From Sabellastarte sp. h YS-2021 (lineage: Eukaryota > Annelida > Polychaeta > Sabellida > Sabellidae), in the NCBI GenBank assembly GCA_964017235.1, contig OZ024931.1, positions 20,126,189-20,190,188 of the forward strand: 64,000 bases of DNA, written 5' to 3'. The stretch's first letter is position 1. Every line of letters starts with the position of its first letter. Under the pieces are notes generated by a model that worked only from the letters and a program-made list of their open reading frames with translations, made no database searches and was not told the origin of the DNA. Of this stretch, positions 1,336 through 59,079 are shown one piece after another. A program made the position numbers and the translations under genes.

Positions 1336-1426
1336 CATTTAACGGTTGATAATTGTCAGAAATTACACACTTTGGTTGCAAATCCTGTATGGCTTGATAC
1401 ACATATAGATTTAACCTTGCTTAATC

Positions 1427-2455: not shown

Positions 2456-2468
2456 TACTGGGAGTTTG

Positions 2469-8300: not shown

Positions 8301-8560
8301 ATCGATCAATGAGGGAAAGGTTTTTGAATTTGTGCATGTTGTTTCAAGGTGAAAATTGAAGTCGCGGATGATCACTAGATTTTCAGTGGTGTGATGAATG
8401 TCCTCCAAAACTGAACTGTTGAAAAAATGTTGGAGTACTGGAGGATGGTGGTCTGTATATATTCAGAAAATGAAAAGATTCTTTGTGTAGGGATATCTTG
8501 ATGAGGAAATTTTCAAAGGTGGTGCAGGTTAAATGAAACTATTCAATTATTAATAAACTT
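5375..8560 (-). mobile_element. CR1/L2-like non-LTR retrotransposon, decayed, minus strand
   Basis: A LINE that encoded an APE-type endonuclease and a reverse transcriptase. Read on the minus strand, 8480-8340 gives the endonuclease motifs NIYRPPSSSTP and a decayed GDFNFH, and 8300-8200 gives HGYTLDLVLTKSNN. The stretch 8179-7859 is the endonuclease-RT linker, and 7692-7228 is the fingers/palm (SLDPWPTFLVLDYLDIL, QSAYRKHHSTESALL). The YVDD active site is at 6371-6382, followed by the RT C-terminal region (HVRHLGVVFDSNF at 6200-6100) down to about 5600. The 3' tail is a short repeat of TAGAT type near 5376-5396. Many stops and frameshifts are present. It sits inside the RNase H region of an older Ngaro relic and is itself hit by a hAT MITE. 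A plus-strand relative is at 39056-40590. Confidence 0.82.
6400..6845. mobile_element. hAT-type MITE (446 bp) with 8-bp target-site duplication
   Basis: The termini are imperfect inverted repeats: TAGTGCTGTAA at the left and, reverse-complemented, TAGAGCTGTAA at the right. The 8-bp sequence GTTAATAC is duplicated exactly at 6392-6399 and 6846-6853. An 8-bp duplication with CAGTGCTG-like ends is typical of hAT transposons. The interior has no transposase and repeats CTCGAGTTCAACTCGAG-type motifs, so it is non-autonomous. It landed about 10 bp from the YVDD codons of the LINE. Confidence 0.85.
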
Positions 8561-30785: not shown

Positions 30786-31732
30786 AGATTTGATCCGGTT
30801 GTGGGAAAAAGTGATGCTTTCAACGCAGATGCACAAAATCCTGACAAATATGAATTAAATTTACATTTTTGTCCTTGTCACAGGCAAAAAATACAATGGG
30901 CTAAGGACTATAGTACTTTTAAGATATGGGATAGACAATGTCTGACAAATTTGGATTTATTCCTCTCCAACCAGCTACAGTACCTCATTCGTTAATGATT
31001 TACATTGGACTTTGACAATCAGATTGAATTATCACATACCATAGGTAACCATAGATCTGGCACTAAATACCCCCATGATCTTGAACCATACCTTACTGAA
31101 TAAAAACAATATAGTGATGTTTTAGGCCCATTTCGCAGTGCCCCCATTAAGAATCTCCTTGTATCCCCATTCATGACACATGAAAAACCAGGGGCCCCTC
31201 ATCACAGGTTCATTATTGACCTCAGCTTCCCTGCTGGTAAATCTGTCAATGCTGGGGTGGCTCCAGATTCAAACTTGTGTTGTAAATTTATGTTTATACT
31301 GACTACAGATTTGATCACAAATAAGCAAAGGTGTCCATATCTATAAAATTGACATACCCAGATCATTTAGACATGTAAAGATGGACACTTCTGATTATAA
31401 ATATTTAAGTTTGCACTTCCAAAGTTACTTTAATAAAAGTTGACTGCCTTTTGGGTTTTGTCTTGGCTCGGCCATCTTTCAATGCCTTCTCAGTACCGCC
31501 AGATATATAATGAGCAACAAATGCCATCAATATAACAACTATATTGATGATATAGTTGGGTATGCCACTAAATCCCAGGCACAAGCCTCTTTTAATACTT
31601 TGTATGAACTACTGTGATAACTAGGTTTCAAAAATAGTATGAATAAGTTAGTCAAACCCACCACTAAGGCTACCTGCCTAAGCGTTAAGTCAGACAATGA
31701 AATACTCCAATTGCTGTTCCACCTGAGAAACT
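30786..31732 (+). pseudogene. Older Ngaro-like RT relic, left half, host of a nested insertion
   Basis: Decayed plus-strand RT of the same family as 33332-35809. In order it shows NPDKYELNLHFCP (linker), then NLLVSPFMTHEKPGAPHHRF (about 31150-31210), DLSFPAGKSVNAG, and a decayed DIPRSFRHVK. A Y(I)DD region (NYIDDIVGYAT) is near 31540-31568. It ends in VPPEKL at 31709-31732. The sentence continues at 38590 with AEIKFTC.QW. Stops and indels show long decay before the young element landed in it. Confidence 0.83.
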
Positions 31733-31920
31733 GGGGGGGTGGAGCAATAGGCTCCACCCTAATCAGTGCACCACAGCGAAAAATATTCTTGTTAATGAAT
31801 TTCTTCGATAGGGTATAGATCTATTGCCTATTAAGTTTGCCGCCAAATTACAATTTAAGCCATTCAACATTGAAAAGTCAAAGGGGCAGGACGCCATTTT
31901 ATGGAACTGTGGAAATTTTT
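31733..31920 (+). repeat. Left terminal repeat A1 of the young Ngaro-like element
   Basis: 188 bp matching A2 with one mismatch seen. It opens with seven G and a perfect hairpin, GGTGGAGC-AATAG-GCTCCACC, at 31738-31758. The crossover with the target is at its left edge. Confidence 0.92.
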
Positions 31921-32334
31921 CTGTAGGACTTCATTTTAGTTTATGCCCTTCAATGTTGGATTGTCTTGGCGTATATGTGGATTGTTGTGTTCCTGCTTTG
32001 GACTCACCCTGAGGACGATTATCGAGCACAGAATCCAGGAGGATTAGTGCTTTGGTTTATGCGAGACTTGCTCCGGGATGCTGGAGCCACTGTGAAGGGA
32101 TGAGTTGCTTTTACATTATTTTAGTCATATTTTAATTCTTATTTTAGTCATTCCATTTTATCTTATTTTTATCTTATTATGTATCACTACTATTTACATG
32201 CATTTAGCTCGTTATTTCTACACTAGCGTGCACAACTCATCCTCTTAAGTGATCTCGTATTAATCAAAGCACACTGTGCTTCTATTATATTGCAGTACAA
32301 ACCATTTTAAAAACTAAAAATTGTGAACAAAAAT
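31921..32334 (+). promoter_or_regulatory. 5' leader of the young Ngaro-like element
   Basis: The 414 bp between A1 and the gag ATG contain no frame of note. Two polypyrimidine/AG sites (TTCTTATTTTAG near 32142; CTATTATATTGCAG ending at 32295) could serve as splice acceptors for a leader intron. Promoter position is not visible. Confidence 0.35.
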
Positions 32335-32796
32335 ATGCCCCCCAAGGAATATCTATGCAAGAAGTGTGGGGACATGCACAAGCGCCCAATTAACAGCAAG
32401 TGCCCGTTCATGGACAATAACAGTGACAATGACTCACAAAATGATTTGCTGCCTGGTGCTCAGGCATTGACACATAGTATTGACAGTGATTTAAACATGC
32501 AGATACTGGCAGAACTGAAGAGCTTAGGCGGCAGGATGACTGCCATGGAGCAGCAGATGGCAGAAAAGAAGACTGAGGACTCCAGGCAGTCGCAGATGCA
32601 ACAGACAGCTGCAGCCCTTACGACCCCAACCACGAGTGCAGCCCAGTTGGACCAAGTGGTGGTTCCTTCCATGGCAGCATTACAGAACTCTGACCAAATA
32701 CAGGCTCAGGTGGATCAACGCATCAGGCAACTTGCTCAGCTCAATGAATCAGGCAAGTTCAAGTCTCAGAGGGGGGGAGTGAAAATATTTGGGTGA
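32335..32796 (+). CDS. Gag-like ORF1, N-terminal frame (zinc finger and coiled coil)
   Basis: Structural/RNA-binding protein of the element. ATG at 32335 opens MPPKEYLCKKCGDMHKR, a C-x2-C-x3-H-x7-C finger (C8, C11, H15, C23). An acidic segment follows, then a helical, heptad-like stretch (about residues 55-85, MQILAELKSLGGRMTAMEQQ) and a Gln/Ala-rich linker. The frame stops at 32794-32796, just after a run of seven G at 32771-32777. The rest of gag continues in another frame. One additional G (or two fewer) would join both frames. The relic at 41707-42700 has a very long G run at the same place. Function is inferred from position and zinc motifs. Confidence 0.8.
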   Translation: MPPKEYLCKKCGDMHKRPINSKCPFMDNNSDNDSQNDLLPGAQALTHSIDSDLNMQILAELKSLGGRMTAMEQQMAEKKTEDSRQSQMQQTAAALTTPTTSAAQLDQVVVPSMAALQNSDQIQAQVDQRIRQLAQLNESGKFKSQRGGVKIFG

Positions 32797-33332
32797 AAAA
32801 ACAGGTGGCTTGGCCACAAAATTTCATTTTAGGTGGGAACAATAAAAGTAGAGTGTCATATGATAGCTTAAATTTATGTCAGTGGGTCTCAGGTTTTGCC
32901 ATGATGGCTAGGGAGGAGGTAAATATGGATAGGAAAAATGCTATGTTGGACTACCTGGGGGAACTTATGGAGGACGCGAATGATTTTAGTTGGCAGTCGG
33001 CAAAATCTGCACATGCAGTGCTTTTGTGTAGAATGGAGGAAGGGAAGGTTGAATGGACAGATACCAGTAAAATAGATAGAATTAGGAGGGCGCATGCCCA
33101 GAGGCCATACACACAGAATTTTGGCAATAATAATTCAAAACAGGGAAAGATAGAGGGCAAATCAAACATTTGCAGATTTTACCAAAGGGGAATGTGTCAA
33201 AATCAGAGGGATCACGAGACAGGGGGGGTTTTTTATAGACATATTTGTGCAACTTGCTACACCATGGGCAAAGAACATAGGCACATGGCCAAAGATTGTA
33301 GAGCATCCTCAAAATTTTCAAAAAACGAGTGA
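32793..33332 (+). CDS. Gag-like ORF1, C-terminal frame (conserved helical domain and C/H-rich finger)
   Basis: Continuation of gag in a shifted frame. Its open stretch actually reaches back to the G run, so GTG at 32793 is not a meaningful start. About residues 23-85 form the conserved domain (LNLCQWVSGFAMMAREE, AMLDYLGELMEDANDFSW), which is also present in the relic at 42108-42350. The C-terminus has a Cys/His cluster (C127, C135, H141, H150, C152, C155, H162, H164, C169: ICRFYQRGMC, RHICATC, HRHMAKDC) typical of Ngaro-like ORF1 proteins. The stop TGA at 33330-33332 overlaps the ATG of RT (TGATG), which suggests coupled re-initiation. Probably made as one protein with 32335-32796. Confidence 0.8.
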   Translation: MKKQVAWPQNFILGGNNKSRVSYDSLNLCQWVSGFAMMAREEVNMDRKNAMLDYLGELMEDANDFSWQSAKSAHAVLLCRMEEGKVEWTDTSKIDRIRRAHAQRPYTQNFGNNNSKQGKIEGKSNICRFYQRGMCQNQRDHETGGVFYRHICATCYTMGKEHRHMAKDCRASSKFSKNE

Positions 33333-35809
33333 TGCACTGCCACAGGGCAGTGCCTGAATTAACAACAAGGGATGGGGAACCAATGTGTGTAAATAAACAA
33401 AAGGTGTTTAATACAAGAATTGTATATTCAAATGTATGTAATCAGACTTGTAGTCTTAACTGGAGGGCCGACTGGGCTCGTTACTCGGGCAAAACTTATG
33501 CACAGGTGCTTAAAAGTAAGCCAGTAAGACAAGAGTTGGACATAGAGGTTCCAAAACAGGCAAAAGGCCTAGGGGCATTCAATAGTGACAAAACAGTAAT
33601 AAATGTAAGTTGGCAAGGCCAACAGCCAGTCAGTATTGCACCAGTCCGCCCTCCAGACAAAAAATGTGTTAACAGAACAAAAACTCAAACTAATGTGAAT
33701 AGTAAAGCAGCTAGCAAAGACTGCTTTCAAATAGCACTCAGTAACAGGTTTCTTCCCATTGCTATGCAACAGCAACAGTTTGAAGCGGTTACCAGTCAAA
33801 ATCAAGGGTCAAAAAACACCAACAAAAATGACTTTAACCCCCAAACTAAAGCTGTAAACACCCAATCTGCACCCAACAAAACAAAGAACAAGGGTGCAGA
33901 AAGGTCGGGTCAAAATATGGCACAACAGGCACCAATTCCAACGGAAAACAAATGCCAAAAAACATCGAAAGCACACTCAGGAAAAAACTTCCAAGGGGAA
34001 GACAAATATGACCTAGAGCTTCATACCACCAATAAAAATAAAATGAGAATAGCCAGGGCCAAACATGATCATACATACAAGCTTTGGTCAGATCAAAATC
34101 CGGACAAGTTTGGCTTCATACCCTTGGGTCCCTTAGTACTTCCAAACACAGATAAAGGCATAGTTATGGGTTCGGATCCGGTTTTACTCTATGATGCGGT
34201 CAAAAGCCAGAAACAGTATAATTTCTTGTCCAGTCAAGTCATACTTCACTCCCAGCTAAAATATCACGAATGGGAGAAAAGGTTAGGCAACTATTGGGAC
34301 CAACAACTCCTTTATTTGATAAAATACGGGTTTCCGCTTGATTTTGACATTGAGGCAACATTGGAATCGAATCACAAAAACCATTATTCAGCAGTGGCCT
34401 TTCCAGAGGATATAGAAAAATACATACATGAAGAAATTGAGTTCCAAGCAATTTTTGGCCCCTACGACATTCCACCCATTCAAAATTTACATGTATCACC
34501 ATTAATGACCAGAGAAAAACCTGGGGCAACACATAGGCGTGTGATAATGGACTTAAGTTATCCCCAGGGTCGGGCAGTCAATTCAAACATTAGCAAAGAT
34601 AAGTACTTAGGCACCGATTTTGTCCTCACCCTCCCATCTATAGATAACATCACAGAGAAGGTCAAAAAGTTTGGTAAAGGTTCTTTATTATACAAGATAG
34701 ACATTAGTCGTGCATTCAGACACGTAAAAATTGATCCAAGAGATTACTTCCTGATGGGTTTAAAGCACAAAAAATACTTTCTGGATACATGTCTCGCGTT
34801 CGGATTTCGGCACGGATCCGGAATTTTTCAGCGTTTAAGCGACGCCGTCAGGTACATCATGACGGCACAGGGTCATGACGTCATCAATTATATTGATGAC
34901 GTCATAGGTTTTGGCACCACCTCTACAGCAGACAAATCTTTTAAATTGCTTAAAAATACCCTAGAAACTCTGGGATTTGAAATCAGCATGAAGAAATTGA
35001 TACAACCCTCCACAAGAGTCACATGCTTAGGGGTAGAAGTCGACACTACAAATTTTACTGTAGCTGTACCTCAAGAAAAATTAGAAAAAATTTTAGCTAC
35101 CTGTCAGGAATGGCAGCATAGGGAAACCTGTAATAAAAAAGAACTGCAGTCTTTATTGGGCAGTCTATTATACATATCCAAATGTGTCAAAAATTCACGA
35201 ATTTTCCTAAATCGAATGTTAGATACTCTGCGTAGTCACAATAACACAGATAAGATTGTTCTGGACACTAGCTTTCATAGGGATTTGAACTGGTTTTCTA
35301 AGTTTCTCCCACAATTCAACGGGAGGGCGTTCTTTTCGCATAGCCCAGTACAGGCTACCATCGAACTCGACGCATGTTTGCAAGGGTTGGGCGCATACTG
35401 TATGAATCAAGTATATGCAATACAAATACCAGTACATTTAAAAAATTACACGATAGTACACTTGGAAATGTTAAATATTCTAGTTACCATCAGAGTTTGG
35501 AAAAAAATTTTCCAAAACAAAAGGATACTTATAGAGTGTGATAATCAAGCAGTTGTGTCGGTTCTCACCACAGGTAGGACTTCTGATTTGACATTAAGCG
35601 CTATTGCCAGAAATATTATGATGGAAACGGCAACCTATGATATTGAACTCCAAGTTATTCATATACTAGGTGTAGAAAACAAAATAGCTGACCTACTGTC
35701 AAGATGGTATATAACACCAAATCCTCACATCAGATTAAGTCAATTTATATCAGATCCGGAATGGTTACAACTTCCGGGCTCTATTATTAATATTGACTGG
35801 TCTATATAA
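33332..35809 (+). CDS. Reverse transcriptase-RNase H of the young Ngaro-like element
   Basis: Makes cDNA from the element RNA. ATG at 33332 overlaps the gag stop; 825 residues. Residues 1 to about 230 are a Lys/Asn/Gln-rich linker without recognised domains. RT follows, with the fingers (SPLMTREKPGATHRRVIMDL, about 388-407), first catalytic Asp in YKIDISRAFRHVK (D457), LAFGFRHGSGIFQRLSDAVR, and YIDD at 520-523. RNase H follows the RT thumb, with D680 (IELDACLQGLG), an HLEMLN glutamate, D737 (ECDNQAVV) and D787 (NKIADLLSRW). All catalytic residues expected are present and no stop interrupts. No methyltransferase domain follows, unlike in DIRS copies of this window. The recombinase frame begins at once downstream. 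Confidence 0.95.
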   Translation: MHCHRAVPELTTRDGEPMCVNKQKVFNTRIVYSNVCNQTCSLNWRADWARYSGKTYAQVLKSKPVRQELDIEVPKQAKGLGAFNSDKTVINVSWQGQQPVSIAPVRPPDKKCVNRTKTQTNVNSKAASKDCFQIALSNRFLPIAMQQQQFEAVTSQNQGSKNTNKNDFNPQTKAVNTQSAPNKTKNKGAERSGQNMAQQAPIPTENKCQKTSKAHSGKNFQGEDKYDLELHTTNKNKMRIARAKHDHTYKLWSDQNPDKFGFIPLGPLVLPNTDKGIVMGSDPVLLYDAVKSQKQYNFLSSQVILHSQLKYHEWEKRLGNYWDQQLLYLIKYGFPLDFDIEATLESNHKNHYSAVAFPEDIEKYIHEEIEFQAIFGPYDIPPIQNLHVSPLMTREKPGATHRRVIMDLSYPQGRAVNSNISKDKYLGTDFVLTLPSIDNITEKVKKFGKGSLLYKIDISRAFRHVKIDPRDYFLMGLKHKKYFLDTCLAFGFRHGSGIFQRLSDAVRYIMTAQGHDVINYIDDVIGFGTTSTADKSFKLLKNTLETLGFEISMKKLIQPSTRVTCLGVEVDTTNFTVAVPQEKLEKILATCQEWQHRETCNKKELQSLLGSLLYISKCVKNSRIFLNRMLDTLRSHNNTDKIVLDTSFHRDLNWFSKFLPQFNGRAFFSHSPVQATIELDACLQGLGAYCMNQVYAIQIPVHLKNYTIVHLEMLNILVTIRVWKKIFQNKRILIECDNQAVVSVLTTGRTSDLTLSAIARNIMMETATYDIELQVIHILGVENKIADLLSRWYITPNPHIRLSQFISDPEWLQLPGSIINIDWSI

Positions 35810-35835
35810 CAGGTATCCCGGCACCAGCTCGGAAT

Positions 35836-36813
35836 TTGGCCTCCAGGGCAGTATCCAGAGTTCACCAGTCTCTCAGACCAGCAACGCAAGCCTCCTACAA
35901 ACGAAAATTTAAGATTTTCATAGCTTATTGTTGTTTTGTCAATGTGCACCTGCATCAGCTATCCACAATTTTCATTCTATCATTTCTAGAATTTCTGCTG
36001 GAGAATGGCACCTCACCCTCGGGCGTTAGCAATTATACATCAGCTGTCAAGTCTAGCTTGGCTATGTATGGGGTTTCCACACTACCTTTCTTGGACCAGA
36101 GGATCATATATTTTCAAAAATCACTGGCTCGCCAGCGACAGTTTTCTATAAAAATCAAGAAAATAATAGACATCCCACTTCTTCAAAAGATCACTTCCTT
36201 ATGTGATACCACTTGGATGGGCCAGATATATAAAGCAACATACCTAGTCGCGTTCTTTTCCTTCTTGAGGATCTCCAATCTGGTCCCACATTCAATCTCT
36301 GCTTTTTCACCATTGGAACAGTTAACCAGGGGAGATATATTCTTTGCACCACCAGGAGTTCACCTGCTTATAAAGTGGTCGAAAACAATGCAAAACAGGG
36401 ACTCGGTCAAAATTATAAAAATCCCACAGCTAGGTACATCTCCCCTCTGCCCAGTCCAGGCATTAAAAAATCTATTAATCCTTACCCCTGGGAGTCAAAA
36501 CGATCCCTTGTTTCAGATTAAGAATGAAGGGGGCAGATGGGTACCATTAACAGACACAAAGGTGAGGCGCCACTTACAAGCAATCTTAGCAAGGCTCAAT
36601 TTGTCTCAATCTCAAATATGTCTACACACCTTCAGGCGTTCAGGTGCTACCTTGGCTTTTAACGCCAACGTTTCCTTACAAAATATAAAAAGTCATGGCA
36701 CCTGGACGTCTGACTGTGTCTGGAGATATATAGTTCAGGATCACAATGCATCCCAGGAAGTGGCTGAGGCATTCTCATCCATGCTTTATACACCTGCAGA
36801 ACCTACCCCCTAG
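35836..36813 (+). CDS. Tyrosine recombinase of the young Ngaro-like element
   Basis: Integrates the circular cDNA by site-specific strand exchange with a covalent phosphotyrosine step. Counting from the TTG at 35836, the N-terminal SAM-like core-binding part runs to about residue 110. The catalytic set is complete: R145 (FFSFLRISNL), H264 and R267 (LHTFRRSGATLAF), H287 and W290 (SHGTWTSD), and the nucleophile Y298 (VWRYI). There is no ATG before the core domain. The frame is open from 35797, overlaps the last codons of RT, and its first Met comes about 75 codons in. Translation by -1 frameshift from RT, by re-initiation at a non-AUG codon, or from a spliced mRNA is therefore likely. Intact to its own stop, 8 bp before B1. 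Confidence 0.93.
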   Translation: MASRAVSRVHQSLRPATQASYKRKFKIFIAYCCFVNVHLHQLSTIFILSFLEFLLENGTSPSGVSNYTSAVKSSLAMYGVSTLPFLDQRIIYFQKSLARQRQFSIKIKKIIDIPLLQKITSLCDTTWMGQIYKATYLVAFFSFLRISNLVPHSISAFSPLEQLTRGDIFFAPPGVHLLIKWSKTMQNRDSVKIIKIPQLGTSPLCPVQALKNLLILTPGSQNDPLFQIKNEGGRWVPLTDTKVRRHLQAILARLNLSQSQICLHTFRRSGATLAFNANVSLQNIKSHGTWTSDCVWRYIVQDHNASQEVAEAFSSMLYTPAEPTP

Positions 36814-36820
36814 TTGGGCA

Positions 36821-37257
36821 TTGGGGTGCGGCATCTACCTCACTTGATTTTTCTATATCACTTATATAACATAGATATATATACATAAATTAGCAGTAAC
36901 TTAGTTATCCATTGAGGTCACCTTTCTTTGGCGACAAGTAAGTTCATTTGGCAATCTCAAACTCAAAAAGTTTAAGGCCACCCTATTTTTAAAGTGTATC
37001 CACTTCTAAAATCTCATGTATGGACACTAATTGAAATATATATATGTAAATGAATTGAACATGTAATCTGGTGTTAAGGGGGCCTCAATTAGCTTCTTCC
37101 AAGTTTAAGGTGACCTCAAACTACTCTAAAGATGCTGTTTTAGTATTGTATATAAACTTAGACATTAAAAATATTATATCCCATGTCTGCATTTCATTTC
37201 TGTGTTTCACTGTAATGGTCACATCTTGCTGGTAATCCATCTGATGGGGCACTGTGG
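36821..37257 (+). repeat. Internal repeat B1 of the young Ngaro-like element
   Basis: 437 bp, matching B2 at 38153-38589 with one mismatch seen (CCCTATTTTTAAAG against CCCTATTCTTAAAG). It ends in CCATCTGATGG...CACTGTGG and runs straight into A2. The B1-A2 joint shows how the ends look in the circular intermediate. Confidence 0.93.
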
Positions 37258-37443
37258 GGGGGTGGAGCAATAGGCTCCACCCTAATCAGTGCACCACAGC
37301 GAAAAATATTCTTGTTAATCAATTTCTTCGATAGGGTATAGATCTATTGCCTATTAAGTTTGCCGCCAAATTACAATTTAAGCCATTCAACATTGAAAAG
37401 TCAAAGGGGCAGGACGCCATTTTATGGAACTGTGGAAATTTTT
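37256..37443 (+). repeat. Internal repeat A2 of the young Ngaro-like element
   Basis: 188 bp, copy of A1 with one mismatch (GTTAATCAAT for GTTAATGAAT). It includes the same seven-G run and hairpin (37261-37281). Confidence 0.92.
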
Positions 37444-38152
37444 CCCTCCTCCCACCCTGGTTCATCTCATTTCATCTGGAGCGAGCGTGTTCTCGGTAGG
37501 GTGGCCTCCTGCGAACCTAACTTTACAGCCTCTGTGGCGCAGGGGAGGGGTTGGGTGCCCTTGTATGTGCTCCTAGCTTGTTACCAATGGGGTTCACAGC
37601 ATTTGCACTTGTTAGCTAGTAGGGGGCCTCTCTACTTGACTCCTTAAGTTTGGGACCTTAGAGTCTCCTTCATTCATTCATTATTTCCAGGGTCATATTA
37701 TGAGATTATGGTTAGAAAAGTCCAATATGATTTTATTTTTCGCTGGGGTTATAGTATCAAACAATACTGTATGGGTGTATGTGCATGTTCTTGTTTATGT
37801 TTATATATTATGTAAATACATATGCATGTTTCTAAACTAGTTTTTGTAGTTTCAGAGTATCAGAGGCTCTGAACATTGAACCTGGGTAGCACAAGCCAGA
37901 AAGCACGAGGCTACCACAGACAAAGAAAAAATACCTTAATGTTCGATTTTTGCTTAATGTACTTTAAGGGTTTTTCAAAAATGAAACACGTTCACACTGT
38001 GCAATGTTAGACCTAAGTAGCCGAATTGCTCGGCACCCTAAGGCTTGAGTTAGGCATGGACTGGATATAGAACGGGACATTCCTCATACTTAAAGTTATT
38101 TTTTTTTAGTATAGCTTTTTAGTCAGGAACGTGTTTTGATTATTCTTTTAAC
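37444..38152 (+). other. Unique spacer between A2 and B2
   Basis: 709 bp without recognised coding content or similarity to the rest of the element. In typical split-repeat elements A2 and B2 adjoin, as they do at 3388/3389 in this window. It could be an extra functional 3' region or acquired sequence. Confidence 0.7.
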
Positions 38153-38589
38153 TTGGGGTGCGGCATCTACCTCACTTGATTTTTCTATATCACTTATATA
38201 ACATAGATATATATACATAAATTAGCAGTAACTTAGTTATCCATTGAGGTCACCTTTCTTTGGCGACAAGTAAGTTCATTTGGCAATCTCAAACTCAAAA
38301 AGTTTAAGGCCACCCTATTCTTAAAGTGTATCCACTTCTAAAATCTCATGTATGGACACTAATTGAAATATATATATGTAAATGAATTGAACATGTAATC
38401 TGGTGTTAAGGGGGCCTCAATTAGCTTCTTCCAAGTTTAAGGTGACCTCAAACTACTCTAAAGATGCTGTTTTAGTATTGTATATAAACTTAGACATTAA
38501 AAATATTATATCCCATGTCTGCATTTCATTTCTGTGTTTCACTGTAATGGTCACATCTTGCTGGTAATCCATCTGATGGGGCACTGTGG
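38153..38589 (+). repeat. Right terminal repeat B2 of the young Ngaro-like element
   Basis: 437-bp copy of B1. The right crossover (CACTGTGG|CTGAAATC) is at its end, and the interrupted RT relic resumes at once. Confidence 0.93.
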
Positions 38590-39055
38590 CTGAAATCAAG
38601 TTCACGTGTAGCCAATGGCTCACCAAAATATCATGCAAGAAAAAAAACCTTCAATCACTTCACAGAAAGTTACTCTATGTCACCAAATGTGTGCAGATGT
38701 TAGCCACCCTTAGATTGGCAAATAAGCATGATATCATACACTTAAACATTGACTTCACAAGGGACCTCAACTGGGTGACAGAATTCTTGCCCATATTTAA
38801 TGGGGTAACCTTTTTAAACACACCCACCCAAGCCCATGTAGAGTTTGATGCCTCACTCCAGGTCTAGGGGTTGTGTGTGGCAAAGAAATGTATATAATTA
38901 TGCAATTGCACTTCCCCTTGGCTAGGAAAACTATTATATTGTCCATCTAGAAATGGAAAATATTCGGGTATCCGTACCTGCGGTTATCACGGGAAAGAAA
39001 AAAAAGTAGTCATACATTGTGATAACCAGGCAGTAGTTGCAGTCTTTACCTCAGG
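38590..39055 (+). pseudogene. Older Ngaro-like RT/RNase H relic, right half
   Basis: Continues the relic that stops at 31732. AEIKFTC.QWLTK is followed by LQSLHRKLLYVTKCVQ, DFTRDLNWVTEFLPIFNGVT and the RNase H start VEFDASLQ (about 38840-38865). In a shifted frame come a decayed HLEM.NI and VIHCDNQAVVAVFTSG (about 39010-39055). A LINE begins immediately afterwards. Stops and indels are scattered. Confidence 0.83.
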
Positions 39056-40590
39056 TCCTCCATATCTTACTGGCAATCCAACCAGTCATTGCTGCATATC
39101 AACACATCAACTCGAGCATTCACTGTTCTGATGTTGTTAGTTTCTGTCAAAACATCATTGGACATCAAAAACGGATTGGATGCTTTTGTTATTCCGACCT
39201 TTACCACCTTTGAAAAGTTTCTCATTAAAATTTCCTAACACGAAGAATCTTTTCACTTTCTAAATGTATATAGACCACCATCCACCAGTACTCCAATCTT
39301 TTTTGAACAGTTTCAGTCACTTTTCGAAAACATTCATCGCACCAGTAATAATCTGGTGATCATCTGCGATTTCAATTTCACCTTGAAACAACATGCTCGA
39401 ATTCAAAAACCTTTCACTCACTGATTAACTCATTTTACCTAAAACAGAAAGGTAACTTCACCACATATTCATGGACATACTCTTGACTTGGTTTCAACCA
39501 AATCCAACAAAGCCAATATTTCTAATGTTCATAACACTGATACCTTTTTCGATCATTTTTCAATTAGCTGCACTGTAAATCTCTCGACTGCATCTTAAAT
39601 CTCTAGAACCCAAACTAATGCTACTGTTACCTTCGGCAAATATCATAAAATTGACAAAGAGAAAATGGAAACAGATATCCTTGCTTCTGAAATCCTTATC
39701 AATCCTCCCAAGGAAGCCAATACCTCTGTACAACCAATATTATTCAACCTTGTCAACCCTTGTTGATAAACATGCACCACCTCACACCAAACATGCCAAA
39801 GTGAAGTATATTACAAGATGGGTAAATGAAAGCGTAATAGCAGCAAAAGAGACCAAGCATTTACTCAAACGCATCTTGTGCAGAAACAAATCTACATTCA
39901 CTAGATCCCAATACACGCATAAAGTACTAGTGCTAGTTAGACGACAAGCCAAGTCGCTCCCATCATTAAATCGATAAGATTTGTGGAGTTCTTCAAATCA
40001 ATTGAAACACTTCGCTCTACTTTCCCTGCTTCCCTGAATTCGCAGCACATCACCTCAGACTCCCCCAGGGTTTCCTACTTTCTCCACTGTTACTGAGGAT
40101 CAAGGTGCCAAAATCATAATGAACTATCCAAGTAAATCATCTTCCCTTGACCCTTGGCCCACTTTTCTTATCCTTGATTATCTGGACATCCTCATCACAC
40201 CCATCACCTCAATAATCAATACCTCTCTTGAACAAGGTAAGTGTCCTAGCTTCTTCAAGCAGGCCCATGTTACCCCAATCCTAAAAAAATCCTCCTTAGA
40301 CAAAGAAGTTTTCAAAAATTATAGGCCTGTCTCTAATCTTTATTTCAAAGATACTTGAAAGGGTAGTAGCAGTCCAGCTCCAAACTCACCTTGATGAATC
40401 TGGCATTTATGACTGTGTTTCAATCAGCTTACAGAAAAGATCATTCTACTGAAAGTGCCCTCCTTAATATTCAGAATGATCTTCTTCTCATCACACACAG
40501 GATGAGGAAATCTAGTGCCATCTCTATTGATAACAAGATGCTTGAGGCTATCTGCAGCAGTAACTCAGCCAGGCCAATATAAACTACCTC
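39056..40590 (+). pseudogene. CR1/L2-like LINE relic, endonuclease and RT, plus strand
   Basis: Same family as the minus-strand LINE at 5375-8560. The endonuclease motifs are NVYRPPSTSTP (about 39265-39297) and ICDFNFHLE (about 39361-39388). The linker is an open stretch at 39618-39977 (YITRWVNESVIAAKETKH). The RT fingers are at 40119-40358 (SSSLDPWPTFLILDYLDIL) and QSAYRKDHSTESALLNI is near 40420-40470. The copy ends within the RT, before its active site, so it is truncated at both ends. It is inserted in, or abuts, the RNase H part of a Ngaro relic. Confidence 0.8.
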
Positions 40591-41706: not shown

Positions 41707-42700
41707 ATGAAAAAAATGGATCCAGGAAATGTTCATGAGAATAAAGCAGGCAGTCAGCAGGCGGGTTCATCCGGCAATGCTGATTGCAGTGCTCAGATAC
41801 TCATCAATCAAGAAATCTTGAGTCAATTGCATAAAATCAGTCAAAGATTGATAGTTCCAAATGTAAAAAGACGTCTGATTTTACAAAAAAAAAATAAAAA
41901 TAAGGGTTACAAAAGTCACACTAGTAGCCCCAAAGTAAAACAATCAAAGCACTCATCCACCAGGGAACAACAGTCACTAATCAATTCCAAACTTGTCGGA
42001 TACAGTAATAATAAGGGGGGGGGGGGGGGGGGGGGGGCAGATGTATTCGTGAAAAATCAGGTCTGATGGCCCCATGAAGATGTCGTATCTGGTTCCACCA
42101 AACAAAGATGGACTATGATCAGTTAACTATCATACAGTGGGTCTCTGACTTTTGCTGCACCATCAGGGAAAAATCTAATAAAAACATGAGGTCCTATATG
42201 TTAGATTACATCATTCCTTTAATGGATGATTCAAATGATTTTTCCTGGGGTGCGGCAAATGCCAGCCACATGGTGTTACTCTGTAAGATGGAACGGGGGG
42301 GGGGGGGGGGGGTGATAAAAGACTTCAGTCAAATTATTGAAAATAATTGACAGAGTCAGAAGGGCAAATGCCCAGAGACTTATGCCAAACGGATCTAGTA
42401 ATAACCCTTGTCAGTACAGAAAAAATGTTCAAAAGCATCGTTAATCTATGGTATGCACATATGTCAACCAAAACACATGTAATTTTACCAAGACCAATGA
42501 GATCAAAGGTGTCCTGTATAGACACATTTGTGCCACATGTTTCAGTGCTTGTAAAAACATTCTCTCATTCTGATAGTGACTGTAGGCAAAACAGAAAAAC
42601 CCAAAAAAGAGTCATAATGGATGTGGGACGCACTAGGCACCACAGCAAAACAAAACAAAAAAACACAACAATGTTACAAGGAACACCAGGCTTCCCCTGA
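41707..42700 (+). pseudogene. Ngaro-like gag relic with two expanded poly-G tracts
   Basis: It corresponds to ORF1 at 32335-33332. The first part (41707-42012) includes ILINQEILSQLHKISQRL, similar in place to the coiled coil. A run of 23 G follows (42015-42037), then DVFVKNQV. The conserved domain is at 42108-42290 (LTIIQWVSDFCCTIRE, YMLDYIIPLMDDSNDFSW) and breaks at a second run of 18 G (42295-42312). The Cys/His finger remains only in traces (YRHICATC-like near 42520-42545). Not functional in its present form. Confidence 0.78.
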
Positions 42701-45700
42701 TATTTGGAAAGATTGGTGACAAAAAGTAAAGCTTTTGCTAACAAGTGTGATAGCAGAATTTTTGCACAAGTCCTGAAACAGAATAAAGCATTAAAAATAC
42801 AAATTTCTGAAACAGAATAAAGGATTAAAAATACAAATTTCTTTGGAATAAACCCCCATTTCTGACCAGGTCACATATTCCAGCAAGGTCTACAATGGCA
42901 GCAGCCATAAAACTGTAAAACAGTGTCAGGCTAAAAAAGTCCTTCAAAATAGCAGGCAAAACTCACATTAGAGTACTGGTTTGCCGAAAGGTTGAACTTT
43001 CACCTAAATGGCAAATTACAGTCTCCAACAGATATGTCCCAAAAATCAGTGTTACTCTTATAATTTGGAAGACTCAGATAGGATCTGAGGCTGATCTGAA
43101 CAGTAGTCAAGGTCAAAATAAACGCAAAAAACAAGGTCAAAACAAGAAGTAGGGCTACAACAGCAGATCCCAAAGACTGCTGTATTGAATGACACAGATC
43201 AGGATGCTCAGACTTTTTCTGCTCAGCAACAATGTGACAGTAGTTTTGATTTGAATGATAATAATTATTAGACCACGCCACCTATGCCAAGATTATAACA
43301 ATTGTTTTCACATCAGGATTTATACCCCTTACTTCATTAAAAGTGTACAATGGGTTTCAAAAACTTGGGATCCTATTCCAGATACACTGCATTTATTTAT
43401 TTATTTGGGGTTTTACGTCGGTGTAACACTGTACAGGCCATATCACAATGGGTAGTTGGAAGGGCAGAGGAAACCAGTACATACAGTTAATCAAGGTTTT
43501 GTACTGTAAACTGCTGACCAACGGCAAGCAACTACCAGCTTTCCCACTAGAGGTTGAGCCGTGAACCGAACCCCAGCCTCAGAGGTGGGAGGTGAGAGTG
43601 TTACCACTCTGCCACTATGGCCCCTCCAGATACACTTCAAGCACATAAGCCAATTAAAGAAAGTGGTGTCCCTAACTATTTATAATAGAATAGAATACAA
43701 AAGAATGGAAACAATACTTACAAGATAGATTATTGGGACAAACAGCTAATAGACTTAATTATCTATGGATTTCCTTTAGTTTTTGATAGGACTGAATATG
43801 GTGCCTTACTCGATTCATTTGATTCCTTGCCAATAGAAGCTCATATATTGCCTCTCATGACAAGATCCAAACAAAATTATGAGAAATGTCGGACTATTAT
43901 GTACCTCAGATGGCCACAAGGACACTCGATTAACACTGGGGTTTATAAGAATAGTTATTTGGATACATATTTCAAACTACATTACCCCTCCATAGACAAT
44001 ATTACTGCTGCCTTAAATACTTTAGGTCCTGGGGCTATGTTTTATCAAATAGACATTAGCCGTGCAGTTAGACACATCAGGATATAGACTTATTAGGTGT
44101 TTCACATCAGAGGCCGTATTTGAATCGAGGACTTCCTTTCGGATTTTGTTATGATTTGGTTTTCTTCCTGCATTGTTCTTCCGTCACATAATGTGCCAAT
44201 ATGGCTTCACAGGTCTGGAACTATATTGACGATCTAATATACACAGGATTGTCCTCTAAAATGCATAAATCGTTTCTTATTGTTACTGTTGCAAGAACTT
44301 TGACTGGATATTGGTAAATAAAAGTTAGTAGCCCCAACAACTTCTGCTATATGTTTAGGAATCATGGTAAATACCTCATTGAGAACAATATCTATTCCAG
44401 ACCAAAAGTTGCTAGAAAAAATCCCTTTGTAAAAATGGACTCTAAAGTCACAATGCACAAAAATTCAACTACAGTCCTTACTTTGCTCCCTTCTCTACAT
44501 AACAAAATGCATGAAGCCAGCACGGTCTTTCCTTAATAGAATGCTAACAGTACTAAGCGACAATCATTTAAGTTAAAAAATTACACTAACTCAAGAGTTT
44601 TTAAAGAGCTTAACTGGTTTAATGTTTTCATTCAAACATATAATGGGGTGGCTTTCTATGACACTCAGAGAGTAGACGAAATCATACATTTAAATGCTTG
44701 TTTGACTGGACTGGAAGATGCTTTTAACAATATGGTATATACTCACCCATTCCTCTAAATTATTAAACATCAACCACCAAGAAATTATGAACATTATGGT
44801 GTCTATCAAAATATGGGGTCCTATATGAGGCAACAAAAAGATTAAGATTAATTGCGATAACTTGCCAGTTGTAGAGGTACTAAATAGTGGCAGGGCCAAA
44901 GATGAAACTCTGGCAACATGCACAAGAAACACGCACTCTACAGTATTCAGAGTCCAACACATTGCTGGCTCTGAAAATAATGTGGCAGGTCTGTTATCTA
45001 GATGGAAAAATTCACTATATGATTTTCATGTGTCAGCTGGACTGTCCCTAGAACAGGTAGATATATGACAGTTGTTCAATTTCATGGAATTTGGCAGAAT
45101 TATTTGGCTGCCATTAGAGCCAAATTCATTGCTTATGGTCTTCCTACTCCCATGTTCAGGGACGAGAGAGTACAGTTATATATTAAATCATTACAGTTCA
45201 ACAGGCACTAAGTTAAGCCTTCCCATCCATTCATCAATACAGATGACATATTTTGAGAAATAGTTTTTATTGGCCATCAGTTGCCTCTTGCACAGTTATT
45301 TATTTTATAAATACTTTTGCTTTCTTTTCATCTCTTAGAATTTCAAATATACCACCACACACATCCACAGCATTTGATGTCACCAGGCACCTCTGTAGAG
45401 GTGTCACTGTTTTACTTATATGGTCAAAGACATTACAGGACAGAAAGGAAACCAGAACTATTGTTATCCCAGCTTTAGGGGAGGGAGCTATCTGCCCTGT
45501 AGCAGCAATGAAAACCATGCTCACTACTGACCACTTATGTTCCAATGATCCATTATTTTCAATTAGGCATGCAGGTAGGACTACTGCACTGACTGATTCA
45601 ACGGCCAGGAAGCATCTTAGGCTAGTAGGTACTAAATTGCATCGCCCTGCACACCTCACTGTTCATATGTTTACGAAAGGTGGAACCTTTAAATCACTTC

Positions 45701-50113: not shown

Positions 50114-52120
50114 GTGAATTGCTTCACTTATAACCGGTGCTGGGAGAAGTGGGAAGTTCTGGGTTTGAGTCCAAAAGTAGTCCCCACACTGAGGGAGGGC
50201 TACACCCTCCCCTTCCGGTTCAGACCCAACTTGACAAGGTCACCAACTGTAATAAGCAACTACCACAACCCAGCCAAGCAGTCCTTCCTTTTAGAAGCAC
50301 TGTATCAGCTGGTGAACAAGAATACAGTACAACCGGTAGAAAATCAAACTCACAGGGCAACCGGCTATTTTTGGTACCCGAGCCCAACAACCGGTGGAGA
50401 CCTGTCCTGGTCCCGAGCACCTTGAACACCTTTTTGAACACAGGGACGTTCAAGATGGAAGCCCCAGAGACAATAAGAACCTCCCTCCAAGCAGGGGAGT
50501 GGGTCACATCCATAGATTTCAAAGAAGCATACTTCCACATACCAATTCACAGTCAGTCCAGGAAGTACATGCGCTTTTACCTCCAGGGTCGGTCCTACCA
50601 GTTCAAGCCCTTCCCTTTGGCCTGTCCACAGCTCCCATGGAGTTCACAGTGGTGGCCAAAGAGGTCAAACTCGTGGCTTTTCAGAAGGGTATAAGGATCC
50701 ACCAGTACCTAGACGACTGGCCTGCTGAGAGCCTCTACCCACCACACCTGTCTCCAGCATACTCAAACCCTAGTCACACTTTGTCAGGAATTAGGGTGGC
50801 TGGTGAACAAGGAAAAGTTAGAGCTGGTTCCCAAACAGGTCTTCAACTTCGTAGGTTACCAGTTCGACCTGAAAGAGGGCAAGGTCAGACCAACAGAAGA
50901 ACGTTGGCAGGCCTTGACACACAAGATCAGATCAATATTGTCGGATCCGCTTTGCCCGGTCCGACAATTCATGTCCCTCATAGTTCTACTCACAGCAACA
51001 GAAAAGCAAGTCCACTTAGGGCGACTAACATGAGACCCATACAGTGGCACTTGAAAAACAACTGGAGGGTCCCAGAGTCACTGGAAAAGGTGATCTCGGT
51101 CCCCAAATCCCTCCACCCCCATCTAAGGTGGTGGCTGGAGGAAAGCAATGTGCTTCTAGGTCAACCATTACACCCTCTAAAACATGCTCTGCAAATCTTT
51201 ACAGACGCATCAATAGAAGGGTGGGGCGCTCACTTAGACGAGCACACTGCAAGGGGACAGTGGTCCCTACCCGAGAGCAAGTTACACATAAACCACTTGG
51301 AGCTGAAAGCAGTATTTCTAGCTCTAAAAGAGTTTCAAACCCTAGTCTTCAACAAGACAGTGTTGGTAGCTACAGACAACACAACAGTGGTTGCCTATAT
51401 CAGCAAAGAAGGGGGGATGAAATCGGGCTCTCTGTGTGCCCTACTGTGGAGAATTCTGTCCTGGTGCACCAGGCAGCAAGTAACCCTCAGGGCACGTCAC
51501 ATCCCCGGCCGGCTGAACGTGATAGCAGACAAGCTATCCAGGCTTGGCCAGACCATTCAAACAGAGTGTCCCAAGCTGTATGTTCAAGGTGGCATCAGCC
51601 ACAAGTGGACCTGTTTGCCACCAGGTTCAACAACAAACTACCACAGTTTGTATCACCGGTACCAGACCCCCAGGCTTGGGCAGTGGATGCACTCAGCCTG
51701 TCCTGGGAGGACCTGGACCCATACGCCTTCCCACAGGCAGCCATCTTGGGCAAAGTGGTGGAGAAGCTCCAGGACTACCCCTGCAACAGAATAATTCTGA
51801 TTGCTCCAGGGTGGCCCAACATGCCCTGGTTTTGGGACCTGGTAGCAATGTCAAGCCAGATCCCACTGTGTCTGCCCAGCATACCCAACCTAGTGTCTCA
51901 GCCATTCAACCAGGTCCTTCACAGGAACCTGCCGAATCTGAACCTACATGCCTGGCTCCTAGAGCCTCAGCAATCAAGGAGCAAGGCTTCTCTGAGGCAG
52001 TGGCAGCACGAATTGAGGCTCCTCAAAGAAGGTCAACCAGATCTGTCTATGAGGCAAAGTGGACCATTTTTACAAAGTGGTGCCTCAGTAATCAGGTGGA
52101 CTTCAGGGCACCACCTCTGA
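50114..52120 (+). pseudogene. DIRS RT-RNase H-methyltransferase-like ORF, copy 1, with frameshifts
   Basis: The leader EGYTLPFRFRPNLTRSPTVI is in one frame (50114-50425). RT proper begins in the next (NRLFLVPEPNNRW, then EWVTSIDFKEAYFHIPI with the first Asp). It shifts near 50615, shows YLDD at 50706-50717, shifts again near 50740 and near 51030, and passes into RNase H (FTDASIEGWGAH, ATDNTTVVAYI). It shifts near 51570 to the methyltransferase-like domain (HQPQVDLFATRFNNKLPQFV, then YAFPQAAILGKVV), which ends RWTSGHHL at 52120. The last domain corresponds to the Dam-like region described for DIRS and PAT elements. At least four frame breaks make it inactive. Confidence 0.88.
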
Positions 52121-53034
52121 AAGCCATTGCTGACTTCCTCCTGCACTTATTTCAGGAGAAGAAGTTACAACCAAGCACTATTGATGGCTACAGATCCGCC
52201 ATTGCTGACAAACTGGGCAATTCCACCATTAATGTCAGCAAAGATGAGAATCTCTCTCGTCTCCTGGATAGTTTCCATAGAGACAGACCTAAGGGCAGGA
52301 GGGGCATCCCCTCCTGGAACCTTTCACTGGTTTTACATCAGCTCACAAAGGCTCCCTTTGATTCCCTGAAAGAGGCCTCCTTGAAACATCTAACTTTCAA
52401 GACTGTTTTCTTGCTGGCTTTGGGTTCAGGTAAACGCAGGAGTGAGATCCATGCTTGGTTACATAAGAACATCAGACACCAGTCGGACTGGTCTAAGGTG
52501 TTTTTGTACCCCTCACCCAGTTTCCTATCCAAGAACCAGCTGGCTAAGGAAGGTCCAGATAGTGTGGCACCAGTGGTCATCCCAGCCCTGGCACCATCTC
52601 TGGATAGGTCACTCAAGGGTGACAGGTCCCTATGTCCAGTTAGAGCCCTGCGCTACTACTTGGACAGGACTGCAGACCTCAGGCAGAATAAGGAGTTAGT
52701 CTTTGTCTCCTTCAAGAAGGGTTTTGATAAAGACATCTCACCTGCCACCATCTCCTCATGGATCAAACAGACTGTGGTTCTGTGCTATGAGCTCTCTGAC
52801 CAGGAGGCCCTCACCTTACATCAGGTTAAAGCCCATGATGTTAGGGCCTTTGCTGCCTCTAAGGCTTTCCAATTAGGGATTTCCTTAGATCAGATCTTGT
52901 CAGCCTGCCACTGGAAATCTCACAACACCTTCACCCAATTCTATTTGAAGGATGTTGCCTGGGCTGACTCGGAGCTTTTCCACCTGGGACCTGTAGTGGC
53001 TGCCCAGCAGGTGCACCACCAGACCCAGAAATGA
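51544..53034 (+). CDS. Tyrosine recombinase of DIRS copy 1 (intact catalytic core)
   Basis: Recombinase that would insert the circular DNA. The frame is open for 496 codons and overlaps the methyltransferase-like frame by about 580 bp. The true start is unknown; recognisable recombinase sequence begins near FSEAVAARIEAPQRRSTRSV (about residue 148, nt 51985). The catalytic set is complete: R298/R299 (GSGKRRSEIHA), H431 and R434 (AHDVRAFAAS), H456 and W457 (ACHWKSHNTF), and Y467 (TQFYL). The stop is at 53032-53034. The sister copy at 59080-60149 has a frameshift and a stop at places where this copy is whole. Copy 1 thus has a sound recombinase beside a broken RT. Confidence 0.9.
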   Translation: MARPFKQSVPSCMFKVASATSGPVCHQVQQQTTTVCITGTRPPGLGSGCTQPVLGGPGPIRLPTGSHLGQSGGEAPGLPLQQNNSDCSRVAQHALVLGPGSNVKPDPTVSAQHTQPSVSAIQPGPSQEPAESEPTCLAPRASAIKEQGFSEAVAARIEAPQRRSTRSVYEAKWTIFTKWCLSNQVDFRAPPLKAIADFLLHLFQEKKLQPSTIDGYRSAIADKLGNSTINVSKDENLSRLLDSFHRDRPKGRRGIPSWNLSLVLHQLTKAPFDSLKEASLKHLTFKTVFLLALGSGKRRSEIHAWLHKNIRHQSDWSKVFLYPSPSFLSKNQLAKEGPDSVAPVVIPALAPSLDRSLKGDRSLCPVRALRYYLDRTADLRQNKELVFVSFKKGFDKDISPATISSWIKQTVVLCYELSDQEALTLHQVKAHDVRAFAASKAFQLGISLDQILSACHWKSHNTFTQFYLKDVAWADSELFHLGPVVAAQQVHHQTQK

Positions 53035-53362
53035 GGGGATGTTGTATATATGTAAATATGTACATATTGTAAAAAAAACAAAAAAAAAACTGTGACTTGC
53101 TTCCCTTGGGAAGTTTATTTCTTCTGGGACTGAACTCAGCCCCTCTCTCTCTATCTTTCCCTTCTCAAACCGACTCTGGAAGGAAAGAAAAAGGGGGGGG
53201 CAACGTCGGCAGACTCCCGGTTAACCGGTGAGTTAGTGGCCGACCTTGACCTGTCAGGGTTCTCTGACCCTAGGTCAAATGGGCCTGTACAATTTTGTTT
53301 TGTTATGAGTTCACAGAAGTCCCTAGCTGCTTACCCGCCTACCAAGCGGTAGTTATTCAGCC

Positions 53363-53455
53363 ATTGTCCATTGGATAGGATGTATTAACGCAATAAAATT
53401 GCAAATTTAATAAGTAAATTAAATTTTTATAAGTTAATACCCTATCCAATGGACA
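53363..53455 (+). repeat. Internal complementary region of DIRS copy 1
   Basis: 53363-53400 is the perfect complement of the left end (47580-47617, 38/38). 53401-53455 is the perfect complement of the right end (53674-53728, 55/55). The region is bounded by perfect 15-bp arms, TGTCCATTGGATAGG and CCTATCCAATGGACA. It is thought to act as a splint when the cDNA ends are joined into a circle. Confidence 0.95.
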
Positions 53456-53516
53456 GGCAAGGCCCTCCCAACCGACCCCGCTACCAGCTTACTAGGGGTC
53501 TAAATCGTTTTAGACA

Positions 53517-53730
53517 ACGAAAAAGATGAACTGACGTCACTCTGTCTGGACAGGAAGCAAGTATGATGCGCCACCTAGCGAATGCACACTACTGACCGGT
53601 CCTGCCAGTATTATATACAGGACGTCTTTTTCTGGCGTTTGGCGGGACCGGTCGCGCCGACCGGTAAAGCAATTGTCCATTGGATAGGGTATTAACTTAT
53701 AAAAATTTAATTTACTTATTAAATTTGCAA
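53517..53730 (+). repeat. Right inverted terminal repeat of DIRS copy 1
   Basis: Complement of the left terminal repeat (47618-47781), followed by the distinct outer end 53674-53728 that the internal region also carries. Confidence 0.92.
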
Positions 53731-53990
53731 AATAATCCGTGTATGCCGTAAAATCTACAAAATTTAAAACCACAGTTCCTCAAGGACACCAAACAAAAAA
53801 GATGAAGTGACGTCATATCCACCTGGTGAGTGGAGAAGGCATTAACCAAGTAGTGAGTGAGGGCGATCTTATTAGTCCAACCAGAGAAATCAATACATCT
53901 TTTTCTGATGTTTAGCAGGAGTTTTTTTGCAAAGGATAATTGGTGTATGTCTGTTAGAGAAGATATATTAACACAATAAAAGGTGACACT
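53731..53990 (-). repeat. Decayed terminal repeat of an older DIRS-like element
   Basis: Diverged version of the DIRS terminus. It has AAAAAGATGAAGTGACGTCAT and CATCTTTTTCTGATGTTTAGC, in the order of AAAAGATGAACTGACGTCAC and CGTCTTTTTCTGGCGTTTGG at 53524-53644, and ends near ATATTAACACAATAAAA. It shows that DIRS copy 1 inserted at the edge of an older relative, read on the minus strand. Confidence 0.65.
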
Positions 53991-57943: not shown

Positions 57944-58364
57944 ACTGCAATACCTTTAAAGACAAAAGGCATTTACTCATTTTAGTAGCTATTACTCTGC
58001 CATCCAAAGAGCTACAGTTCTGCAAGTTTATTATGTAGTAGATCAACCCAAAGTAGGTAAAGGACATATTTAGAAGAAATTGCCCATCTGTAACACTTTT
58101 AGAGATAAAAGACATTTACTCATTTTAGTACCTGTTACTCAGCTAGGCAAAGAGCTACAGTTGTGCAACTTTACTGTGTGGTAGATCACCCAATAGTAGG
58201 TGAACAACTTGTTTAGAAGAAATTGCCTATCTGCAATACTTTTAGAGATTAAAGACATATACTCATTTTAGCAGGTATATGACTCAGCTATGCAAAGAGC
58301 TATAGATGTACAACTTCACTATGTGGTAGATCACCCAAAAGGTGAATCAGTTATTCAGAAGAAT
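57944..58364. repeat. Tandem array, unit about 143 bp, nearly three copies
   Basis: Unit starts CTGCAATACCTTTAAAGAC at 57944, CTGTAACACTTTTAGAGAT at 58088 and CTGCAATACTTTTAGAGAT at 58231. Each includes AAAGAGCTA(C/T)AG and GTAGATCA(A/C)CC. The last unit is cut by the DIRS terminus at 58365. Confidence 0.82.
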
Positions 58365-58631
58365 TTGCAAATTTAATAAGTAAATTAAATTAAAGTTAAT
58401 ACCCATCCAATGGACAATATGCTAAACCGGTCGGCGCAGACCGCCCCGCAAACGTCAAAAAAATGACGTCCTGCGTTTCCACCGGCTGGCCGGTCCTCAC
58501 ACTGCACTCGCCAGGTGGCGCATCGTACTTCCTTCCTGTCTAGACAACCTGACGTCATAGCATCTTTTTTGTTGTCTAAATGTATTAGACCCGTAGTAAG
58601 CTGATGGCGGGGTCGGTGGGAGGGTCTTGTG
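58365..58631 (-). repeat. Right terminal repeat of DIRS copy 2
   Basis: The outer end GCAAATTTAATAAGTAAATT begins at 58367, with TT at 58365-58366 as the junction dinucleotide (AA on the other strand, as in copy 1). The inner part follows the 53517-53673 repeat with substitutions (CCAGGTGGCGCATCGTACTT). Confidence 0.85.
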
Positions 58632-58722
58632 TGTCCATTGGATAGGGTATTAACTTATAAAAATTTAATTTACTTATTAAATTTGCAATTTTATTGCGTT
58701 AATACATCCTATCCAATGGACA
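58632..58722 (-). repeat. Internal complementary region of DIRS copy 2
   Basis: Matches 53363-53455 in the opposite orientation almost base for base, including the 15-bp arms TGTCCATTGGATAGG and CCTATCCAATGGACA. It is better conserved than the coding parts of the two copies. Confidence 0.92.
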
Positions 58723-59079
58723 ATATGCTGAATAACTACCGCTTGGTCGGTGGGTAAGTTACTAGGGACTTAAGTGAACTCAGAAAAGAACTAACAAAAT
58801 TTCCTCCAAGCCTGGGTCGACCTTGAGGTCGGCAAGACCCTTAAGGCTATAGTCGGTCAACAGAAACCGGTTAATTGGTCCAAACCGACTCGCCTCCCCC
58901 CCTTTTTTTACAGACTTGCTCTGAGGTAGGGGAAGAGAGGGATGAGTTCAGTCCCTTAGGAAATAAACCACCCGAAGGAAGCATGTCAGAGTTTTTTTTT
59001 ATGCTTCTTAAATATATATATACACTATTTACATATGCACAATTATTTACATATGTATAGATCTCCTCCCTGTCCTGGG
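58723..59079. other. 3' non-coding part of DIRS copy 2
   Basis: No gene. Similar in reverse complement to 53035-53362 of copy 1 (AATAACTACCGCTTGGT, then a C-rich/T-rich tract and GGAAATAAAC). Confidence 0.7.

Follow-up and report, generated by a model that had tools for sequence, protein, structure and literature searches.

What sets Ngaro-type tyrosine recombinase (YR) retrotransposons apart is that they combine split direct repeats with the lack of a methyltransferase (PMC4157794, PMC9210276). In the DIRS1 model, a circle with a 3-bp junction recombines with an identical genomic sequence and no duplication results (PMC3266345). Integration of YR retrotransposons is largely a model, and the single genome considered here supplies base-exact empty sites and sibling junctions with which to test it. 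We analysed a 64,000-nucleotide stretch of contig OZ024931.1 from the annelid Sabellastarte sp. h YS-2021 (hereafter the window; C5:20126189-20190188) and searched the 1.79-Gb genome assembly. In the window, a young Ngaro-type YR retrotransposon very probably inserted precisely into the reverse transcriptase (RT) gene of an older relic, by way of an inferred circle and a one-point exchange without a TGG-matching target. The outcome of the test is that precise insertion holds, and that the 3-bp identity rule fails for this family.

By its structure, the element counts as a new Ngaro member. Its parts follow the order A1-gag-RT/RNase H (RH)-YR-B1-A2-spacer-B2, so that a complete split-direct-repeat retrotransposon lies within the window, with the following open reading frames (ORFs), repeats and flanking target.

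30834-31731, + strand: remains of an older Ngaro-like RT that form the left side of the target, recognized by tblastn to the element RT and by paralogues L029-L035
31732-38586, + strand, 6,855 bp: whole Ngaro-type element in the left-most register (TGG...CACTG), placed from its junctions and from sibling copies
31732-31921, + strand, 190 bp: A1 repeat, one mismatch against A2
32311-33329, + strand: gag-like region, two overlapping open frames (32311-32793 and 32748-33329)
33302-35809, + strand: RT and RNase H ORF, 835 codons, YIDD motif read by eye
35797-36813, + strand: YR ORF, 338 codons, overlapping the RT ORF, no ATG near its start
36821-37254, + strand: B1 repeat, one mismatch against B2
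37241-37299, + strand: B1-A2 joint, a nested inverted repeat with the crossover point CACTG/TGG between 37254 and 37255
37255-37444, + strand: A2 repeat, near-identical to A1
37445-38152, + strand, 708 bp: spacer between A2 and B2
38153-38586, + strand: B2 repeat, right end CACTG
38587-39056, + strand: the older relic resumed as the right side of the target, starting TGG CTG AAA TC

Like the Ngaro elements of zebrafish, sea urchin, Cafeteria and Xenopus, this element has split direct repeats in the arrangement A1-[ORFs]-B1A2B2 with the internal repeats downstream of YR, encodes RT/RH and a tyrosine recombinase, and shows neither a methyltransferase nor a target-site duplication (0-2 bp in all ten copies read at both ends). 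It differs from them in its 708-bp A2-B2 spacer and shortened A1 and in a gag carried by two overlapping frames, and may differ in its B1-A2 joint, which forms a nested inverted repeat. It also lacks the hydrolase ORF described after YR in amphibian Ngaros (PMC9210276). Since the relative L014 keeps spacer positions 1-556 directly after A1 and before the leader, the spacer of the window group is probably the part of A that was lost from A1. DIRS1-like and PAT elements are likewise tyrosine recombinase retrotransposons, and differ from this one by the methyltransferase, for which we found no match; the pairing of both element ends by an inverted repeat, a DIRS1 feature alongside an internal complementary region, is absent among repeats of at least 25 nt, and the ends here are direct repeats. 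Neither a methyltransferase nor a DDE integrase domain appeared in the four ORFs scanned with Pfam up to E=1.

The RT/RH ORF matches RVT_1 above the cut-off (5.5e-10) and RT_RNaseH just under it (2.4e-4). Pfam matches to the gag-like frames are all sub-threshold (CCCH zinc finger, E 0.066), and the homologue of this region is a relic at 42096-42555. Inspection by eye places the recombinase residues R...HxxR...H...Y in FLRIS, HTFRR, HGTW and WRYI. The ratio of nonsynonymous to synonymous substitution (dN/dS) for YR is 0.10, 0.27, 0.16 and 0.07 against the siblings L010, L011, L012 and L013, and that for RT/RH is 0.18 against L011; codons holding stops, which occur in L010 and L012, were skipped, and one further alignment omitted these two copies. 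These ratios point to purifying selection on RT and YR. The A1/A2 comparison shows 1 mismatch in 190 bp and the B1/B2 comparison, over 36821-37257, 1 in 437 bp; with only 2 differences in 627 bp of repeat, the insertion is young.

The target aligns with the element RT by tblastn in three pieces: residues 231-453 with 30834-31325 (33% amino-acid identity), 456-581 with 31318-31695 (48%) and 596-758 with 38592-39056 (39%). On the basis of these alignments it is a decayed relative from another Ngaro family. Repeats, ORFs and relic alignment thus agree with an earlier note on this DNA, which had described a young Ngaro-like element nested in an older relative, and the three junctions it named are all present in the sequence: AAAC-TGG-GGGGGTGGAGC on the left, CACTG-TGG-CTGAAATC on the right and CACTG-TGG-GGGGGTGGAGC at the internal B1-A2 joint. 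Cutting out 31732-38586 (6,855 bp), or the same length in any equivalent register as far as 31735-38589, restores AAACTGGCTGAAATC and the local frame. Only the local frame is recovered because the relic has a 1-base gap relative to its paralogue L029 about 20 bases upstream of the insertion site. The restoration of the reading frame claimed earlier therefore holds locally and for the 6,855-bp deletion; the deletion of 31733-38589 (6,857 bp) that had been proposed is off by 2 bp: it gives AAACTCTGAAATC and disrupts the reading frame.

A genome search with the joined flanks returned at least 40 places, including the window's own halves, and 7 of the 38 non-self places listed were read. Among the matches listed, continuous ones lie on C3 (83%), C4 (78%) and C20 (76%). 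Two of the seven relatives read, L029 (C3, 83% alike) and L031 (C20, 76%), carry the predicted AAACTGGCTGAAAT in every letter; L030 (C4) has AAACAGACTGAAA at the insertion site, and L032-L035 are more distant variants with the same length at the site, L032 having one extra base slightly upstream. Because the C3 and C20 paralogues carry AAACTGGCTGAAAT, the unfilled site foreseen in the earlier note is independently supported, with nothing duplicated or lost. On the evidence of these paralogous sequences, the nested insertion and its reconstructed empty site are real.

These sites bear directly on two other accounts of the nest. Integration of the long terminal repeat (LTR) type, by a DDE integrase and with a short target duplication concealed in TGG, is extremely improbable: the window copy alone, with TGG on both sides, is readable as a 3-bp duplication, but the empty site holds a single TGG, so that the paralogous empty sites contradict this account, and TGG itself lies within the B1-A2 joint. 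The other nine copies with two readable ends show 0-2 bp, and the element thus lacks the fixed-length target duplication of LTR retrotransposons as well as any Pfam match to their integrase up to E=1. It is also very improbable that the nest was produced not by transposition but through gene conversion or unequal exchange among related Ngaro copies, or through their misassembly. Element and target are both Ngaro-like, and repeat recombination is suggested by a solo A-spacer-B copy (L004, on C18), by an A-ORFs-B copy (L010, on C6) with no A2-spacer-B2 within its 10-kb locus, and by tandem B-A-spacer units (L024, L025). Against this stand the identity of just ~33-48% between relic and element RT, in pieces, and element ends that are the same as in copies elsewhere. 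The derivative forms do not discriminate, because identical products are expected whether the repeats recombined homologously or through the recombinase acting on two B-A joints. The solo copy has a counterpart in the solo AB repeats reported for Cafeteria Ngaros (PMC8547959).

The search for further copies that the earlier note had suggested, by joint and flanks, was productive, and siblings with ends as in the window were found. The joint query and the B-end query gave at least 40 matches each, and junctions are counted only for copies whose loci were read. The internal joint of the window copy is also present in the sibling L002/L011 and in the relative L013. In all ten two-end copies (window, L004, L010, L012, L013/14, L016, L019, L024, L026 and L028) the longest flank duplication is short, being 0 bp in six, 1 bp in three and 2 bp in one; L013 and L014 were treated as a single copy whose ends lie 13 kb from each other and enclose foreign DNA. 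Left ends of the main group read flank and then TGG in 9 of 10, a count made without L009, whose left end lies inside a G run, and without subfamily 2, which was counted apart; L011 was kept despite three bases missing right after the G run. On the right, TGG directly follows the B end in only 2 of 15 copies (the window copy and L052), and the other 13 continue TAT, AGT, ATA, TGT, AAT, ATC, ATT, TAA, TTT, AAC, TTG, CAT and GTC. This second count omits L019 (B end CACT and then T) and subfamily 2, and keeps L016 although its B end is TACTG. With 50:50 resolution of a shared core, the asymmetry of TGG would have a chance of 0.011 for the left ends and 0.004 for the right ends. The first target base after CACTG is A or T in 13 of 15, from which no preference is claimed, the window itself being A+T-rich.

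The copy on C7 (L012) sits in tandem-repeat DNA, and its joined flanks read TTACGAGAT followed directly by AGTAAGTTG. Among the matches listed, the join is gapless in five of the six alignments that span the flanks, and TGG stands at the join in none of the aligned neighbouring units. Since TGG is the element's own left end, 13 of 15 right ends differ from it and the C7 units lack it, a shared 3-bp core is not required. In canonical tyrosine recombination, the two strand exchanges are offset by some bases, and after replication the intervening letters have an equal chance of lying on either side. Here, element letters stay left and target letters stay right, so the exchange looks like a single point at CACTG/TGG. 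The textbook DIRS-type reaction, in which two-strand exchange would unite the 3-bp junction TGG with the same three letters in the genome, is consequently unlikely. It accords with the TGG in the window target, with the further TGG right end of L052 and with the published DIRS1 model (PMC3266345); it is opposed by the 13 right ends that are not TGG, by the unfilled C7 units, and by the placement of TGG on the left side in nine of ten copies. Unlike in DIRS1-like elements, then, an identical target core is not needed here. Among the copies read, precise insertion without duplication appears general, and three-base identity with the target does not. The earlier statement that element and target share TGG with nothing duplicated is borne out for the window target and for the lack of duplication, and fails as a mechanism. 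A limited literature search recognised no published test of the Ngaro target core, and such a test may exist.

Under the preferred reading of a precise, one-point insertion, reverse transcription would yield a circle, and the internal B1-A2 joint, equal in sequence to the predicted circle junction, would template its B-A junction. The recombinase would recognise the inverted repeat at this junction and join it at CACTG/TGG to the target, in the window between AAAC and TGGCTGAAATC in the RT gene of the older relic. TGG would go with the left end and the target letters would directly follow CACTG on the right, with no base gained or lost; the TGG of the window target would have been there already by chance or weak preference, with no requirement for it. 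A circle is likely, given the precise insertion, the recombinase ORF and the internal joint. The earlier description of the site as direct evidence for circle insertion was too strong.

Several observations weigh against this reading. The evidence includes neither a circle molecule nor a B2-A1 junction molecule, and we infer the circle. Pfam matches of the YR ORF (Phage_int_SAM_5, 0.0036; Phage_integrase, 0.019) both fall under the curated cut-off, and a comparison of YR with solved structures gave no match up to E=1. The tenth main-group left end, L016, has AAG instead of TGG; its flanks match two different repeats, and for that reason its empty site could not be judged. One of the six spanning alignments at the C7 site has a 21-base gap over the join. 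The 50:50 expectation presumes two-strand exchange, and biased mismatch repair would make it misleading. In subfamily 2, whose joint is CACTG-TAG-CGGG, right ends start with TA in four of four copies (L024, L025, L026, L028), and left ends (L021, L024, L026, L028) carry TAG in three of four and TAA in one. The likeness of these right ends to the core TAG may mean that subfamily 2 favours targets with TA. The subfamily-2 copy L028 has the join CTC followed by TATATCAG, and of three paralogues read, L062, in favour of the reading, carries the joined sequence, whereas L063 and L064 differ near the site by small changes; all three differ in length 5′ of it.

Three copies (L059/L036, L060/L037, L061/L038) are ~99% alike to B, with right ends exact at CACTG and left ends truncated within B, spacer and YR.

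The B1-A2 joint, CTG(A)TGGGGCACTG / TGGGG / GGGTGGAGC-AATAG-GCTCCACCC / TAAT / CAGTGCACCACAG, has an outer arm of 12 pairs, interrupted by a bulged base and a mismatch, and an inner arm of 9 pairs, and the crossover CACTG/TGG sits at the end of the outer arm. As single-stranded DNA (37236-37312) it folds at -21.5 kcal/mol (z -6.39, equalled by 0 of 200 shuffles; opposite strand z -6.26). None of this fold remains at the integrated right end (z 0.0), and the inner arm is kept at the left end (z -2.62; 1 of 200 shuffles as good). When 77-nt windows were taken every 20 bases over the 64 kb, 3 of 3,197 folded at least as well as the joint, and 0 of 464 did so among those with similar GC. The strongest single-strand fold of the scan is at 34841-34917 in the RT frame, a near-perfect palindrome spanning the YIDD codons, and RT stretches near it match themselves inverted in L010, L011 and L013.

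Across 16 distinct joint sequences, aligned without L012 (longer G run) and with chance pattern matches in L014 and L019 dropped, 90.6% of cells are paired, against 28.3-53.3% for slid partners; this pairing is equalled by 307 of 500 shuffles of the set, and 0 pairs are altered on both sides, leaving no compensatory changes. Folded singly, eight other joints give z from -0.74 to -4.42 in the joint's orientation and from -1.58 to -4.70 on the opposite strand. Three fold weakly (L020, -1.06; L022, -0.74; L023, -0.91; opposite strand -1.58, -1.87 and -1.70), and the remaining five range from -2.24 to -4.42 in the joint's own orientation. The inverted repeat appears conserved at the joint, in sequences that do not tell a duplex reading from a folded-strand one. 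In the second Ngaro-like family, near the beginning of the window, this hairpin was not seen (2965-3055; z -1.44 and -2.48).

Integron attC sites are palindromic, their bottom strand is folded with extrahelical bases, one strand is exchanged and resolution is possibly by replication (PMC3053210, PMC4792948). Taken as a working analogy and not as a relative, attC/IntI shares with the joint outer and inner arms, an unpaired bulge base, a crossover beside the outer arm and one-sided junctions (for attC, PMC3053210). It differs in that the present element is a eukaryotic retrotransposon with no attI and with no compensatory changes in the arms. As a hypothesis, the resemblance suggests a one-strand reaction. 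Ngaro integration might conceivably be integron-cassette-like, with YR acting on a folded single strand of the circle's B-A hairpin, exchanging one strand at CACTG/TGG with almost any target and leaving replication to resolve the product; we hold this only tentatively, as a doubtful proposal. If true, it would explain the one-sided single-point junctions, the absence of target homology and the nested inverted repeat at the junction. By extension, the junction of the DIRS1 inverted terminal repeats would likewise be palindromic. The most interesting lead to emerge is the conserved palindromic joint together with the one-sided junctions, and this joint provides a defined substrate for testing circle-to-chromosome joining biochemically.

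Other elements surround the nest. To the right of the target, a relic like a long interspersed element lies at 39197-40488; its inverted counterpart at 7149-8529 is 77-83% alike. More Ngaro-type relics of gag, RT and YR occupy 42096-45684. A second Ngaro-like element at 1-4164 has RT and YR pieces 41-54% identical in protein; its long repeats lie at 2469-3001 and 3389-4164, the latter split near 3846-4071 by an insert like a short interspersed element. Two elements in inverted orientation to each other, 50141-53731 and 58364-61982, are 76% alike and lie where the GC content is 44-51%; they have RT, RNase H and tyrosine recombinase matches and probably belong to another class of YR retrotransposon.

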